Part shown: in pieces, positions 21,820 through 60,886 of the stretch
Layout: each line of letters opens with the position of its first letter
Position numbering within the stretch: the first letter of the stretch is position 1
Assembly (NCBI GenBank): GCA_903862955.1
Contig: CAIPAH010000013.1
Location: forward strand, 124,001-188,000
DNA: 64,000 bases
Origin: an uncultured Opitutia bacterium
Lineage (GTDB): Bacteria > Verrucomicrobiota > Verrucomicrobiia > Opitutales > Opitutaceae
Reading direction: 5' to 3'
Program-made: the position numbers and the translations under genes
Notes under the pieces: model-generated
Told to the model about the DNA's origin: nothing
The model's input: only the letters and a program-made list of their open reading frames with translations
Databases searched by the model: none

Positions 21820-21834
21820 CGCCGGGGATTTTTT

Positions 21835-21955
21835 AAGCCGGAAGCCAGGAAGCCAAGAAAACAGAATGGCGACAGTTGTGGTTTGAAGCCGGAAGCCAGG
21901 AAACCAGGAGAAATCCGAGGAGTAATTCTTGGTTTCCTGGCTTCCGGCTTCAAAC
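21835..21955. repeat. Inverted repeat cluster, family B, with a perfect 26-bp hairpin
   Basis: Arms 21881-21906 and 21930-21955 are perfectly complementary over 26 nt with a 23-nt loop. A third, direct copy of the arm begins at 21835 (AAGCCGGAAGCCAGGAAGCC). The cluster lies in the 192-nt gap between the two helical-repeat/solute-binding protein pairs. Confidence 0.93.
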
Positions 21956-22011
21956 CGCAGGCCGCAAAACTTTTTTCGGTAGAGCTTGTCGGAGCGGGGT
22001 GAACTTCCACG

Positions 22012-44532: not shown

Positions 44533-45330
44533 ATGCCGCTCCCGCCCCGCCTCCTTGAGGACGACACCCTCGTCGCATTCGACAAGCCCAGCGGGCTGCC
44601 CGTCGCGCCCGAACGCGGCCGGAAGGGAGCGCAGTCCCTCGTGGCGCTCGTGCAGGCGAGCTACGGCCCGGGCGTGGCCAACGTGCACCGGCTCGACACC
44701 GACGCGAGCGGCGTGGTGGTCTTTGCGAAGACGAAGGTCGCGCTCGATTTTCTCAGCGGGCAATTCCAGTCAAAGACGGCGGCGATGAAATATTTCGCGC
44801 TGGCGGTGGTGCAGCCGGCGGAACGGGCGCTGAAGGACGTGGCGATCCTGCGCGCGGCGAACGACAGCCTGCCGGACACGTTCATGATCGAGCTCGCGCT
44901 CCGTGACGACGAGCACGAGCCAGGCCGGCTGCGCGTGGGCAAGGGCCGCGAGAGTCGCGAGAGCGCGACGGCGGCGCGCACGCTGGAGCGCTTCGGGCGG
45001 TTCGTGTGGCTGGAGTGCAACCCGGTCGGCAACCGCACGCACCAAGTCCGCGTGCACCTAGCCGCACTGGGCGCGCCGGTGTTGAACGACGCGTTTTACG
45101 GCGACCCCGAGGTGAAGCTGCTGCTTTCTGACCTGAAGCGCGGCTACAAGGGCCGCGACGAGGAGAAGCCCATGCTCAGCCGCCTCGCGCTGCACGCCGG
45201 CGAACTCACGCTGAAGCATCCCACGACGCGGGAGCCCATCACCCTCACTGCGCCGTTGCCCCATGAATTCGAGATTGCGCTGAAGTATCTGCGGAAGTTC
45301 GGGACAGGACGGGTGCGGGGAAAGATTTAG
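44533..45330 (+). CDS. RluA-family RNA pseudouridine synthase
   Basis: A 265-residue protein. The catalytic Asp55 lies in VHRLDTDASGVVVFAKT and the conserved NRTHQVRVHLA helix near 180 follows. It isomerises uridine in rRNA or tRNA; the target site is unknown because there is no S4 domain and the family is broad. AAGGA stands before the ATG at 44533. Its stop lies within the left arm of the following inverted repeat. Confidence 0.93.
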   Translation: MPLPPRLLEDDTLVAFDKPSGLPVAPERGRKGAQSLVALVQASYGPGVANVHRLDTDASGVVVFAKTKVALDFLSGQFQSKTAAMKYFALAVVQPAERALKDVAILRAANDSLPDTFMIELALRDDEHEPGRLRVGKGRESRESATAARTLERFGRFVWLECNPVGNRTHQVRVHLAALGAPVLNDAFYGDPEVKLLLSDLKRGYKGRDEEKPMLSRLALHAGELTLKHPTTREPITLTAPLPHEFEIALKYLRKFGTGRVRGKI

Positions 45331-45506
45331 CCGGAAGCCAGGAAACCCGGAACGAGGAAGCGGGGATTCCAATCCGGATCGCGAAAGCGCGAAAGGACAG
45401 AAACGTGAAAGGACAAACCGCCCCGGCGACCTCTGTTTCCGCGCCTTCGCTCTTCCGCGTTTTCGCGATTGGCCTTCACCCTGCCGCGTTCCTGGCTTCC
45501 GGCTAA
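45327..45506. repeat. Nested inverted repeats, families B (outer) and F (inner)
   Basis: The outer arms 45327-45344 and 45489-45506 are perfectly complementary over 18 nt (TTAGCCGGAAGCCAGGAA); the left arm includes the RluA stop at 45328-45330. Inside, arms 45379-45395 and 45453-45469 (ATCGCGAAAGCGCGAAA) pair at 15 of 17. Both families occur elsewhere on their own. The element separates convergent genes. Confidence 0.9.
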
Positions 45507-45515
45507 GTCTTCCGG

Positions 45516-57754: not shown

Positions 57755-57869
57755 CGGGGGATCAGGGGCGGTCGGGAGACGTCACGCCGTTTCGTCCTCC
57801 GCGGGGGCATGCCCCTATCGGGGAGGCATTCCCCTAGAGCGTCAAGGAGGGAGTGGAGGTCGAGCCGAT

Positions 57870-58074
57870 GCCCGCGAAAGACGCGAATCTGACCCGGATG
57901 AAACCAAGGCATTTTTGACCACGGATAACACTTAGGAACACGGATCAATCCTCCTTGATTGTCATTGCGAGGAGGCTGCAGGCCGACGTGGCAATCCATC
58001 CGAAGGGGACTTCCTCGCCGTGACAATCCGGGGTTCGGGATTGATCCGTGTTCCCAGGTGTTATCCGTGGTCAA
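57870..58074. repeat. Nested inverted repeats: family C outer, family M inner, family A at the side
   Basis: This 374-nt gap (57755-58128) has no gene. Outer family C arms 57915-57950 and 58039-58074 pair at 33 of 36. Within their loop, arms 57957-57972 and 58013-58028 (GATTGTCATTGCGAGG) pair at 14 of 16 around GTGGCAATCC-type text known as a palindromic repeat in many bacteria. A family A arm stands at 57870. A palindrome GGGGCATGCCCC is at 57811-57822. Confidence 0.92.
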
Positions 58075-58128
58075 AGCTCCTGAGGCTTGGACTTTGCGCT
58101 CTTGGCGTCCTTCGCGGTGAATCCCCAC

Positions 58129-60762
58129 TCACTCTTGGCGCAGGGCGATCAGCGGATCGACCTTCGTGGCGCGCCGCGCGGGGAGCCAGCACGCAAGGAG
58201 GGCGACGAGGGCGAGGAAGAACGGGACGGCGAGGTAGGCCACGGGGTCGTGGGTGCTAACTTCGAAGAGCAGCGAGCCGAGGTAGCGCGTGGCGACGAAG
58301 GACGCCACCAAGCCGACCAGAATGCCAGCGCCCACCATCCGGCCGGTTGAGGAAAAGATCAGGCCGAGGATGTCGCGGCGCTGCGCGCCGAGCGCCATGC
58401 GGATGCCGATCTCCTGCGTGCGCTGCGTCACGGAATAGGCCACCACGCCGTAGATGCCCAAGGCGCTGAGTAGCAGGGCCACGCCGGCAAAGGCGGCGAA
58501 CACGAACAGCGCATAGCGTTGGGGCGCGATCAGTTCATTCACGAAGGCCGTCAGGTCCATCTTCGTGACGATGGTCAGCGGCATCTCGGGATCGACCCGG
58601 TCCATCGCTTCCCGCAGCGAATGCTCCAGCCCCATGATCGGGCCGTCCACGCGAATGAGCAGGTTCGGAACCGGGTAGGGGACCTGCGCGAAAGGGACGT
58701 AGATTTGGAAGGGACGTTCGAGCAGCGGCCCGCGGTCGTGGATATCGTCCACCACCCCGACAATCTCGCGGGAGGCCGCGCCGGGGGCGTCGCTCATCGC
58801 CGTGACCCGCTGGCCGAGCGGATTCTGGCCGGGGAAGAATTTGGCGGCGAAGCCCTGGCTGACGACCGCGACCGGCGCCCGGTCCGCGGTATCGCGCGGC
58901 TCCAGCAGCCGGCCCTGCAGCAGGCGCACATTGAGCGCGCCGAAGAAATCCGGCGTGGTGATGAAGGTGCTGGCCTGGGGCAGGTTGGTCGGATCCAGGT
59001 CGGGGCGGCTGTCGATGCGGAAAGGCCGATCGTTGCCCGAAAATCCGGGAAAGTGGGTGGCAAAGACGACGGAATGAACGCCGGGGACGGCCGTGAGGTG
59101 CTCGATCACCTGGCTCGCGAAAGTCGACTGGCTCAGGGGCGTGGGATAGCGAGACGCCGGCATGATGATTTTCGCGAGGTAACACGTGTTGGTTTTGAAT
59201 CCCAGCGGGACCTCCTGCATGCGCAGGAAGCTGTGAATGAGCAGGCCGGCGAACATCAGCAGCACGAGCGCCAGGGAAACCTCGAAGGCGACGAGAATGC
59301 TGCGCAGGCGCAGCGCGCCGCCGCCGGCGCTGTTGCCGCGGCCATGATCGCGCATGGCCTGCTGGGGATTGACCCGCGAGGCCTGCAAGGCGGGCGCGAG
59401 CCCGAAGCCGAGGCCGGTGATCAGGGCGAGAACGCAGCTGAAGAGCAGGACATAGCCGTCGATCGCGATCTCGTGGGTGCGCGGCATCGAGAGCGGGGCG
59501 GACGCGATCAGGACCCGAAGCCCGCCCTGGGCGAGAAGAATGCCGAGGACACTGCCCGCGACGGAGATGAGCAGGCTTTCGCAGAGCAGCTGGCCGATGA
59601 TGCGGCCGCGACTGGCGCCGAGGGCGATGCGGACGGCGATTTCCTTGGCGCGGGTACTGGCGCGCGCGAGGAGGAGATTGGCGACGTTGACGCAGGCGAT
59701 CAGCAGCAGGAAACCCACGGCACCCAGCAAAAGGAACAGAAACGGTTTGACCGTGCTGACCTTGAAATCGATCGCGGGCACCGCGTGACCAGACCAATCC
59801 TTGTTGGTGTCGGGAAACTTGAGTGCGGTGCGGCGGGAAATCTCCGCGATTTCGCGATCCGCTTGCGCGACCGTCACCCCCGGCTGGAGGCGCGCCAACA
59901 CATCCCAGTAGCGCGGGATCAGGCCCACATCACTGATGCTTTCTGGTTCGGGAGCAAAGAACTCGGGATCCTTGATGGGTTCGGGCCAGAGATTGGGCGG
60001 CATGACGCCGACAACGGTGAAAGGCTGGTCATCAATCCGAACCTGCTGACCGATGATGTCGGGCCGGCGGTCAAAGCTGCTGACCCAGAGGCGATGATTG
60101 AGGATGAGGACGTTGCCCTTTCCCGCGACGAATTCCTCGGGGCGGAAATTCCGTCCCAAGACGGGTTGCACGCCCAGCGTGGGAAAATAGCCGGCGGTCA
60201 CCCGCCACCCGTAGATGCGTATCGGCAGCCCAAGGCCGGTGAAGGTGCGTGGCCAACCGGCGGCCGCGCCCAAGCTTTCAAACAAAGTGGCCTGCGCCTT
60301 CCATTCGCGGAAGGTGACGCGCCAGGCACCGTTATTCGAGGGCTGTCCCTTGAACGATTCGCCCAACCCGACCACGCGAACGGAATCCCGGTAGGGCAGC
60401 GGCTGGAGGATGACGCTGTTGACGACGGTGAAAATGGCGGCGGTGGCGCCGATGCCGAGGGCGAGGGTCAGGACGGTGATCGCGGTGAACCCGGGGCTCT
60501 TGCGGAGCAGCCGGAAGCCATACCCGAAATCCTGGAGCATGTGCTCGAGCCACGGCAGCCCGCGTTGCTCGCGCACCTGCTCCTTGATCCCCTCGACGTG
60601 GCCAAACTCGCGCTGCGCGGCGAAACGCGCCTCGTCGGGCGACATGCCGGCCGCGAGATTGGCCTTCACCTGCAGCTCCAAGTGATGCCGCATCTCCTCG
60701 GACATCTCGCGGTCGAGGGTGTCCTTGCGGAAGAAGGCGCGGAGGCGGCGGAGGAGTTTCAT
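58129..60762 (-). CDS. ADOP-family orphan ABC permease
   Basis: An 877-residue protein with the prefix domain (TLDREMSEEMRHHLELQVK, FGHVEGIKEQV) at 1-80 and two FtsX/MacB halves; the C terminus is ARRATKVDPLIALRQE. The first periplasmic region contains VVGLGESFKGQPSNNGAW. It is the second permease downstream of PadR. Sequence similarity to its neighbours is moderate, so the run looks like old duplications. Confidence 0.93.
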   Translation of the reverse strand: MKLLRRLRAFFRKDTLDREMSEEMRHHLELQVKANLAAGMSPDEARFAAQREFGHVEGIKEQVREQRGLPWLEHMLQDFGYGFRLLRKSPGFTAITVLTLALGIGATAAIFTVVNSVILQPLPYRDSVRVVGLGESFKGQPSNNGAWRVTFREWKAQATLFESLGAAAGWPRTFTGLGLPIRIYGWRVTAGYFPTLGVQPVLGRNFRPEEFVAGKGNVLILNHRLWVSSFDRRPDIIGQQVRIDDQPFTVVGVMPPNLWPEPIKDPEFFAPEPESISDVGLIPRYWDVLARLQPGVTVAQADREIAEISRRTALKFPDTNKDWSGHAVPAIDFKVSTVKPFLFLLLGAVGFLLLIACVNVANLLLARASTRAKEIAVRIALGASRGRIIGQLLCESLLISVAGSVLGILLAQGGLRVLIASAPLSMPRTHEIAIDGYVLLFSCVLALITGLGFGLAPALQASRVNPQQAMRDHGRGNSAGGGALRLRSILVAFEVSLALVLLMFAGLLIHSFLRMQEVPLGFKTNTCYLAKIIMPASRYPTPLSQSTFASQVIEHLTAVPGVHSVVFATHFPGFSGNDRPFRIDSRPDLDPTNLPQASTFITTPDFFGALNVRLLQGRLLEPRDTADRAPVAVVSQGFAAKFFPGQNPLGQRVTAMSDAPGAASREIVGVVDDIHDRGPLLERPFQIYVPFAQVPYPVPNLLIRVDGPIMGLEHSLREAMDRVDPEMPLTIVTKMDLTAFVNELIAPQRYALFVFAAFAGVALLLSALGIYGVVAYSVTQRTQEIGIRMALGAQRRDILGLIFSSTGRMVGAGILVGLVASFVATRYLGSLLFEVSTHDPVAYLAVPFFLALVALLACWLPARRATKVDPLIALRQE

Positions 60763-60786
60763 CGGAGATAAATCAATCTTCGGAAT

Positions 60787-60880
60787 TTATCGCGGAAACG
60801 CGAAAGGGCGGAGACGCGAAATTCGATCCTGAGCAGACGGATTGTTTTCCAAATTTCGCCCTTTCGCGTTTCCGCGATAA
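60787..60880. repeat. Inverted repeat, family F, perfect 24-bp arms
   Basis: Arms 60787-60810 and 60857-60880 are perfectly complementary over 24 nt (start TTATCGCGGAAACGCGAAAG) with a 46-nt loop; further imperfect pairing extends outwards. CGCGAAA units repeat at about 10 nt. A shorter version is nested in 45327-45506. Confidence 0.93.
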
Positions 60881-60886
60881 AAGATT

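Follow-up and report, generated by a model that had tools for sequence, protein, structure and literature searches.

Small palindromic repeats accumulate in the loops of unrelated hairpins in an uncultured Opitutia bacterium and its relatives

Small palindromic elements of this clade appear to come to rest, or to insert, preferentially at the tips of hairpins that already exist, a reading to which we give a probability of about 0.55. The locus described here comprises two or more separate elements, one inside the other. The locus lies in a stretch of 64,000 nucleotides from an uncultured Opitutia bacterium (hereafter, the window). In it, a TGTC-tagged REP dimer (family T) occupies the loop of a longer hairpin (family C), and the whole perhaps stands in the loop of a palindrome of GCGAA type (Table 1). 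The excess of such elements in loops is firm, and it was found in two collections of repeats from this and related genomes.

Results

The arms of the outer hairpin are 38 nt long and pair at 36 positions (95% complementary) around a loop of 86 nt, at nearly the same place where an earlier note, made from the sequence alone, had seen arms with 33 of 36 positions paired. The second palindrome that the note had described inside this loop is there as well, with arms at 57957 to 57973 (GATTGTCATTGCGAGGA) and 58012 to 58028 (TCCTCGCCGTGACAATC) that pair at 15 of 17 positions. The note had also suggested structure prediction on single-stranded DNA. Folded in this way, the segment from 57860 to 58090 reached −68.2 kcal/mol, against a mean of −35.1 (standard deviation, 3.5) in 200 dinucleotide shuffles, none of which equaled it, and is therefore far more stable than shuffled sequence (z = −9.4).

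Table 1. Features of the nested locus and of the neighboring hairpin, in window coordinates
Feature	Position	Strand	Remark
Possible outermost arm, CCGCGAAAGACGCGAA, of the GCGAA type seen in families D and K	57872–57887	+	Weak on its own
Left arm, family C hairpin (TTTGACCACGGATAACAC...ACACGGATCAATCC)	57914–57951	+	Arm pattern in 34 of 57 genomes, its own included
Inner palindrome, family T, decayed REP-dimer-like (GAT-TGTC...GACA-ATC)	57957–58028	+	
Left REP unit of T: TGTC tag 57960–57963, ATTGC 57964–57968, GCAAT 57991–57995, CCA tail 57996–57998	57960–57998	+	
Right REP unit of T, truncated or decayed; tag (GACA on the plus strand) 58022–58025	57999–58025	−	By comparison with intact copies
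Right arm, family C hairpin	58038–58075	−	36 of 38 positions pair with the left arm
Partner of the possible outermost arm	58102–58117	−	As far from its C arm as the left partner
Sibling family C hairpin without T, 50-nt loop	54955–55064	+	Adjacent intergenic gap, one gene away

The family C arm is composed of spaced CACGGAT words. Many arms, in several families, have the same architecture of two or three quasi-repeats of 7 to 9 nt (CACGGAT, CGCGAAT, CACGAAA, CACGGAA, and CCAGGAA). The genes on either side of the nest are co-directional and encode MacB_PCD and FtsX domains. Between 52230 and 63556 the window carries a tandem of four co-directional ORFs of 877 to 889 amino acids, of which the two checked have both domains, and at least three of the gaps between these ORFs contain palindromic repeats. 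The sibling family C palindrome had been missed by the earlier note. Other palindromes of the window (families GCCGGAAGCCAGGAA, CGCGGAAACGC, and CACGGAA) are found at 21831 to 21956, 45322 to 45511, and 60786 to 60881 and from 63533 onward. At gathering thresholds, the Rfam search of the whole window returned the tmRNA gene alone (RF00023, 1128 to 1486, minus strand).

A third level of nesting is probable at this locus. The outermost arms, likewise missing from the earlier note, pair at 14 of 16 positions. We call the level probable only, because that score was reached by 0.55% of 20,000 random pairs of positions, drawn from all positions of the sample whether intergenic or not, and because the flanks of the sibling hairpin hold no comparable arms.

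A query taken from another copy of T in the same genome matched in at least 15 of the 57 genomes, its own included; with up to 15 candidates scored per genome, the T set is a lower bound. Elements could be delimited 86 times among 111 loci; 71 copies remained once two were dropped for short flanks and 13 because their flanks were similar. The general form is TGTC-ATTGC...GCAAT-CCA, in two inverted halves. Among the 142 half-elements, 124 start with TGTC and two with CGTC, a count tilted toward TGTC by the fuzzy TGTCATTGCGAG search with which the copies were gathered. The CCA tail was present in 103 halves, 17 were unread, and 22 had another ending. Both arms occur at 79 of 109 loci (L037 and L061 being one place), so that head-to-head dimers predominate. 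The stem consists of ATTGC/GCAAT, an internal loop, and then an apical stem. Judged from its sequence, T reads as following the grammar of the CGTC/TGTC REP dimers, though its stem is longer and interrupted.

The position of palindromes relative to each other was measured in a sample blind to nesting, 1.26 Mb from three genomes (G002, G004, and the window's own, G000), which gave 88 convergent pairs from 20 arm families. Reversed-pattern controls yielded few matches in general, although families L (5 versus 14), i (2 versus 4), and B (1 versus 1) were near their control. A cruder test placed 13 of the 88 pairs in the loop of another repeat, one at an edge, and none in an arm. With a finer test that allows for uncertain ends, the figures were 14 in a loop and none in an arm; in one of these 14 (L310), the inner and outer elements come from two families that are related, R and r. 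By the same finer test, 4,000 random points from the three genomes, intergenic by the crude definition of lying outside ORFs of at least 110 amino acids, fell in a loop 118 times (2.95%) and in an arm 108 times (2.7%). The 13 nests of the cruder test comprise many combinations of families, and only E in D (three) and E in K (two) recur.

The second collection was the set of T copies, which shares two copies with the first (L068 within L298 and L077 within L306). With T removed, the junction lay in a loop in 15 of the 71 nonredundant copies, in an arm in none, and in neither in 56, while 8,000 random points, drawn from the same three genomes and intergenic by the same crude definition, fell in a loop in 4.15% of cases, in an arm in 3.2%, and at an edge in 0.5%. 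Within the genus of the window, 10 of 53 copies were in loops, compared with 2.2 expected; the remaining five of the 15 all come from genome G044 and have a single outer family, J. The pairing of the T flanks with each other reached a score of at least 30 in 14 of 71 copies, compared with 0.86 expected when flanks were swapped between copies and with 2.9 expected from random intergenic points (4.0%). The excess falls at low thresholds (37 of 71 versus 15.4 at a score of 16 with swapped flanks, and 23 versus 7.0 at a score of 20 with random points). Applied to the same 71 copies, the finer test called 11 in a loop and two in an arm at a threshold of 12, and 10 and none, respectively, at a threshold of 14.

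An excess in the loops of unrelated hairpins over their arms, as expected of insertion targeted to structure, is thus what both collections contain, measured with a test of limited power for arms. Simulated insertions into arms were called arm by the finer test in 40 to 42% of cases and loop in 8 to 9.5%; simulated insertions into loops were called loop in 66 to 69% and arm in 6 to 17%. The cruder test is misled by a few added bases at the junction, with which most insertions into arms are scored as none or as loop, and its calibration is poor when the ends are uncertain. The shortage in arms, given the small numbers, is likely.

The earlier note had proposed that the loop of a hairpin is a preferred target for another element, chosen by structure rather than by sequence. 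Loops are indeed over-represented, for T and for palindromic elements generally, but this does not extend to the choice of structure by the insertion itself, which these counts would allow and which we infer only. Structure is favored over sequence because the outer sequences are mutually unrelated and loops are over-represented among them; this part of the proposal falls short for two combinations, T within J and probably T within family M, which behave as one unit (see below).

Selective retention is the main rival to insertion into loops. Elements would insert anywhere, and those in loops would survive by sparing the outer stem (a terminator, an mRNA stabilizer, or a protein site), while inserts in arms or in functional intergenic sequence would be lost. 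It predicts an identical pattern of loops over arms, so the loop and arm counts fit biased insertion or biased survival. However, retention needs outer hairpins that are under selection, and the exact C arm occurs at just two loci of the window's genome, the related copies having diverged. In addition, the excess was measured over all intergenic points and not over arms alone. We regard retention as rather unlikely, although no other alternative comes as close.

The outer and inner elements at the locus are different elements. A loose pattern that also admits the related CGCGGAT, CACGGAA, and CGCGAAT arms found 87 unique C-class pairs among the loci collected, a count that omits some nests, such as L268 with its degenerate left arm. 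Their loops measure up to 30 nt in 35 cases, 31 to 60 nt in 22, and more than 60 nt in 30. Loose T matches fell in six of these pairs, but by full sequence two (L323 and L172) belong to family U, which leaves four with T (the window, L132, L339, and L081) and 83 without. In L172, near position 1347 (G004), a family C hairpin encloses a complete U palindrome of TGTCATTCTGAG type in its loop. A loose TTACAGGAG pattern occurs in eight C-class pairs, and the full TTACAGGAGATAAC palindrome is plain in L247, L249, and L255. Other C loops are short (11 to 24 nt) or contain a different palindrome. Since the loops of C hold T, U, the TTACAGGAGATAAC palindrome, or nothing recognizable, C and T are independent. 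Conversely, T is hosted by C (window, L132, L268, and L339), by a GGCGGGTC family (L041, L111, L122, and L353), by E (L349 and L081), by R (L077), F (L091), and L (L068), and weakly by GGGATCGCC (L037). The earlier note was therefore right to call the two palindromes unrelated, and the copies of C with empty loops that it had recommended looking for exist; the case that it named as refuting, the same inner element in all copies of C, is not what we found. Some empty C hairpins resemble filled ones, namely, L271 for L132 (82% identical) and L258 for the window (69%).

Comparison of orthologous gaps suggests repeated use of the same sites by different palindromes. In the gap L039/L323, T is present in G004, and the window's genome has a GTAGCGCAGGCG hairpin there instead. 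In L091 and L110/L275, T lies inside an outer F palindrome in G006 and G004, and in G002 that palindrome encloses a different hairpin and no T. In a third set (L127, L121/L295, and L274), T is present in G006 and G011, with a hairpin instead in G004 and G002. At L040, L057, and L006 a related gap lacks T, the similarity near the junction being low. All of these comparisons are compatible with gain or loss alike, and at the orthologous T junctions compared, some with low similarity nearby, no target duplication was legible. The best orthologue of the window's gap, in G009 (window 58102 to 58327, L328), has neither C nor T but has diverged too far to reveal a junction. The syntenic comparison of G002 with G004 gave mostly low-identity matches.

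In a different explanation, the outer and inner elements spread together as a compound unit, in which the insertion is old or never occurred. This fits genome G044 well. There, 43 matches to the GGAGGCTGTTGAAAAA arm of family J resolve, in the loci fetched (L404 to L433), into 14 distinct pairs of 161 to 212 nt, and T is inside all 14, probably as a compound mobile unit. Among the GGTAGTGGTACAG pairs of family M in G005, the clear ones (L058, L102, and L103) contain T, probably with no empty copy, and the combination is probably a fixed unit; most three-mismatch matches of the GGTAGTGGTACAG search were at control level. Two single GGTAGTGGTACAG arms without a clear partner lie by a T remnant (L454) and by another hairpin (L460), and the candidate M palindrome around the latter was not supported, with only 7 nt paired. 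The ACGGATCAATCC edge beside T, common to the window, L268, and L132, points the same way, and it is possible that some copies of T within C descend from one compound. As a general explanation, however, the compound unit is refuted by the many C-class pairs that lack T or hold U or TTACAGGAGATAAC in their loops, by the several unrelated hosts of T, by the neighboring sibling hairpin without T, and by the varied combinations of nests. It stands for T in J and probably for T in M, and overall we consider it unlikely.

Nests of more than two levels were also found. In the window's genome, two clean three-level nests are formed by U within E within D (L323, 19012 to 19279) and by a T-like element within E within D (L324, 8198 to 8420), and in G002, by T within C within D (L132). 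Another locus of G002 (L267, 2000 to 2190) has two clean levels and a third hairpin that overlaps an arm of the second. Families G and r/R are nested in both orders (L267 versus L298 and L324). Genome contigs were also scanned for a C arm followed by T within 20 nt. Of the 45 stretches recovered, from many phyla, three scored as full nests (L366, in the genome of G002; L383, in the genome of G006 and with E-type outer arms; and L363, weak) and the rest are single neighbors or chance; nests as diverged as L132 and L339 would escape this exact pattern.

Intergenic space is limited and palindromes fill part of it, so that repeats piling into a few repeat-rich gaps could land inside each other by chance; at the thresholds used this is refuted, and it is very improbable, since at the stronger thresholds swapped flanks and random points yield no more than about a fifth of the count observed, and arms are hardly hit although they hold more bases than loops in the 107 palindromes measured (5,228 versus 4,166). 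Growth of the outer arms around the inner palindrome by fold-back copying, with no transposition, would agree with the good mutual match of the arms in the window but is refuted for families with independent copies, the inner and outer elements being dispersed families that are also found alone, and is the least credible of all.

Among 30 loci with a Y1_Tnp match, 10 of which end early at contig ends, none had T on both sides of the Y1 gene. A T-like match was seen in one (L182, G039), some 1.2 kb beyond the domain match and not flanking it. In G044, a broken Y1 gene has a unit of T within J (L043) about 180 nt away, on one flank but not the other; a second T-like match near this gene has 3 of 12 bases off, which is chance level. 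The window's genome has two Y1_Tnp matches, and the one that was read adjoins other repeats, with T not flanking. Six Y1 loci of the genus (L195, near 1906 to 1945, and L200 to L204) share repeats of GGGTCAGCCCCTAA type, with AGGGGCTGACCCC / GGGTCAGCCCCTAAC words beside the gene that are perhaps the REP family of these Y1 loci themselves. T does not fit a RAYT-mobilized REPIN, as no RAYT gene examined is flanked by the same REP and the tag is TGTC rather than GTAG. In these 30 loci, T behaves like the CGTC/TGTC repeats in having no dedicated transposase adjoining it.

Discussion

If elements do insert preferentially at hairpin tips, an older palindrome may extrude as a hairpin in single-stranded DNA, either on the lagging strand or as a cruciform, and its unpaired loop would serve as the target when a strand-specific enzyme handles the incoming element. 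Successive families, each repeating this step, would produce nests like Russian dolls. An enzyme of HUH/Y1-like kind would fit, since enzymes of IS200/IS605 type are described as using single-strand, strand-specific chemistry (PMC8266576). More tentatively, and with odds somewhat against it, hairpin tips may in general, and whatever their sequence, receive the inserts of a whole community of small palindromes, in which each insert becomes the next target and nested shells of intergenic DNA build up; one shared enzyme, acting in trans on single strands, may serve many families.

The preference for loops across unrelated hosts points to a substrate of folded, single-stranded DNA. Moreover, if nests form by insertion, each one records relative ages, the outer element before the inner, and the order in which repeat families invaded these genomes could be read from them directly.

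In the account of Di Nocera et al. (2013, PMC3733652), the CGTC/TGTC superfamily of REPs shares with T the TGTC tag, the AT at the start of the stem, the CCA tail, the head-to-head dimers, and the lack of a flanking transposase. The CGTC REPs described there have a stem of 8 to 9 bp and a loop of 4 to 5 nt, unlike the long, interrupted stem of T, and the five phyla from which they are reported do not include Verrucomicrobia. How REP-like repeats spread without a transposase of their own is stated as open for CGTC repeats in the same work.

REPs inside palindromes have been reported there for GTAG-15 of A. variabilis, GTAG-23 of T. roseum, and CGTC-1 of H. neapolitanus, each with one target consensus; targets free of the REP are given for T. 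roseum and none for A. variabilis or H. neapolitanus (PMC3733652). The units of T within J and T within M resemble the compounds of the last two species. Taken as a whole, however, T differs from these REPs: its host hairpins are several and mutually unrelated, and many hairpins lack it. The dRS3 repeats of Neisseria, CGTC-type repeats in intergenic mosaic regions, are interleaved with other families as here; they are described as clusters and interleaving, and concentric nesting in loops is not stated in that description (PMC3733652). In the open-licence literature searched, we found no report of multi-level loop nesting of palindromic repeats.

With the REPINs mobilized by TnpA-REP (RAYT), T has in common that two inverted REPs make one small mobile unit (PMC3116915, PMC8266576), and single-strand chemistry would explain the use of loops. 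In contrast to the REPINs of RAYTs, T stands on both sides of no Y1 gene examined and carries a TGTC tag, not GTAG. Finally, several insertion sequences (IS1397, ISKpn1, IS621, ISPsy8, and ISRm22) are listed as inserting in REP palindromes (Tobes and Pareja 2006, PMC1525189), and for ISPsy8 and ISRm22 the insertion point is the axis of symmetry. Those described cases concern full insertion sequences, each with its own REP target, whereas here the inserts are themselves short palindromes and their hosts are unrelated in sequence.
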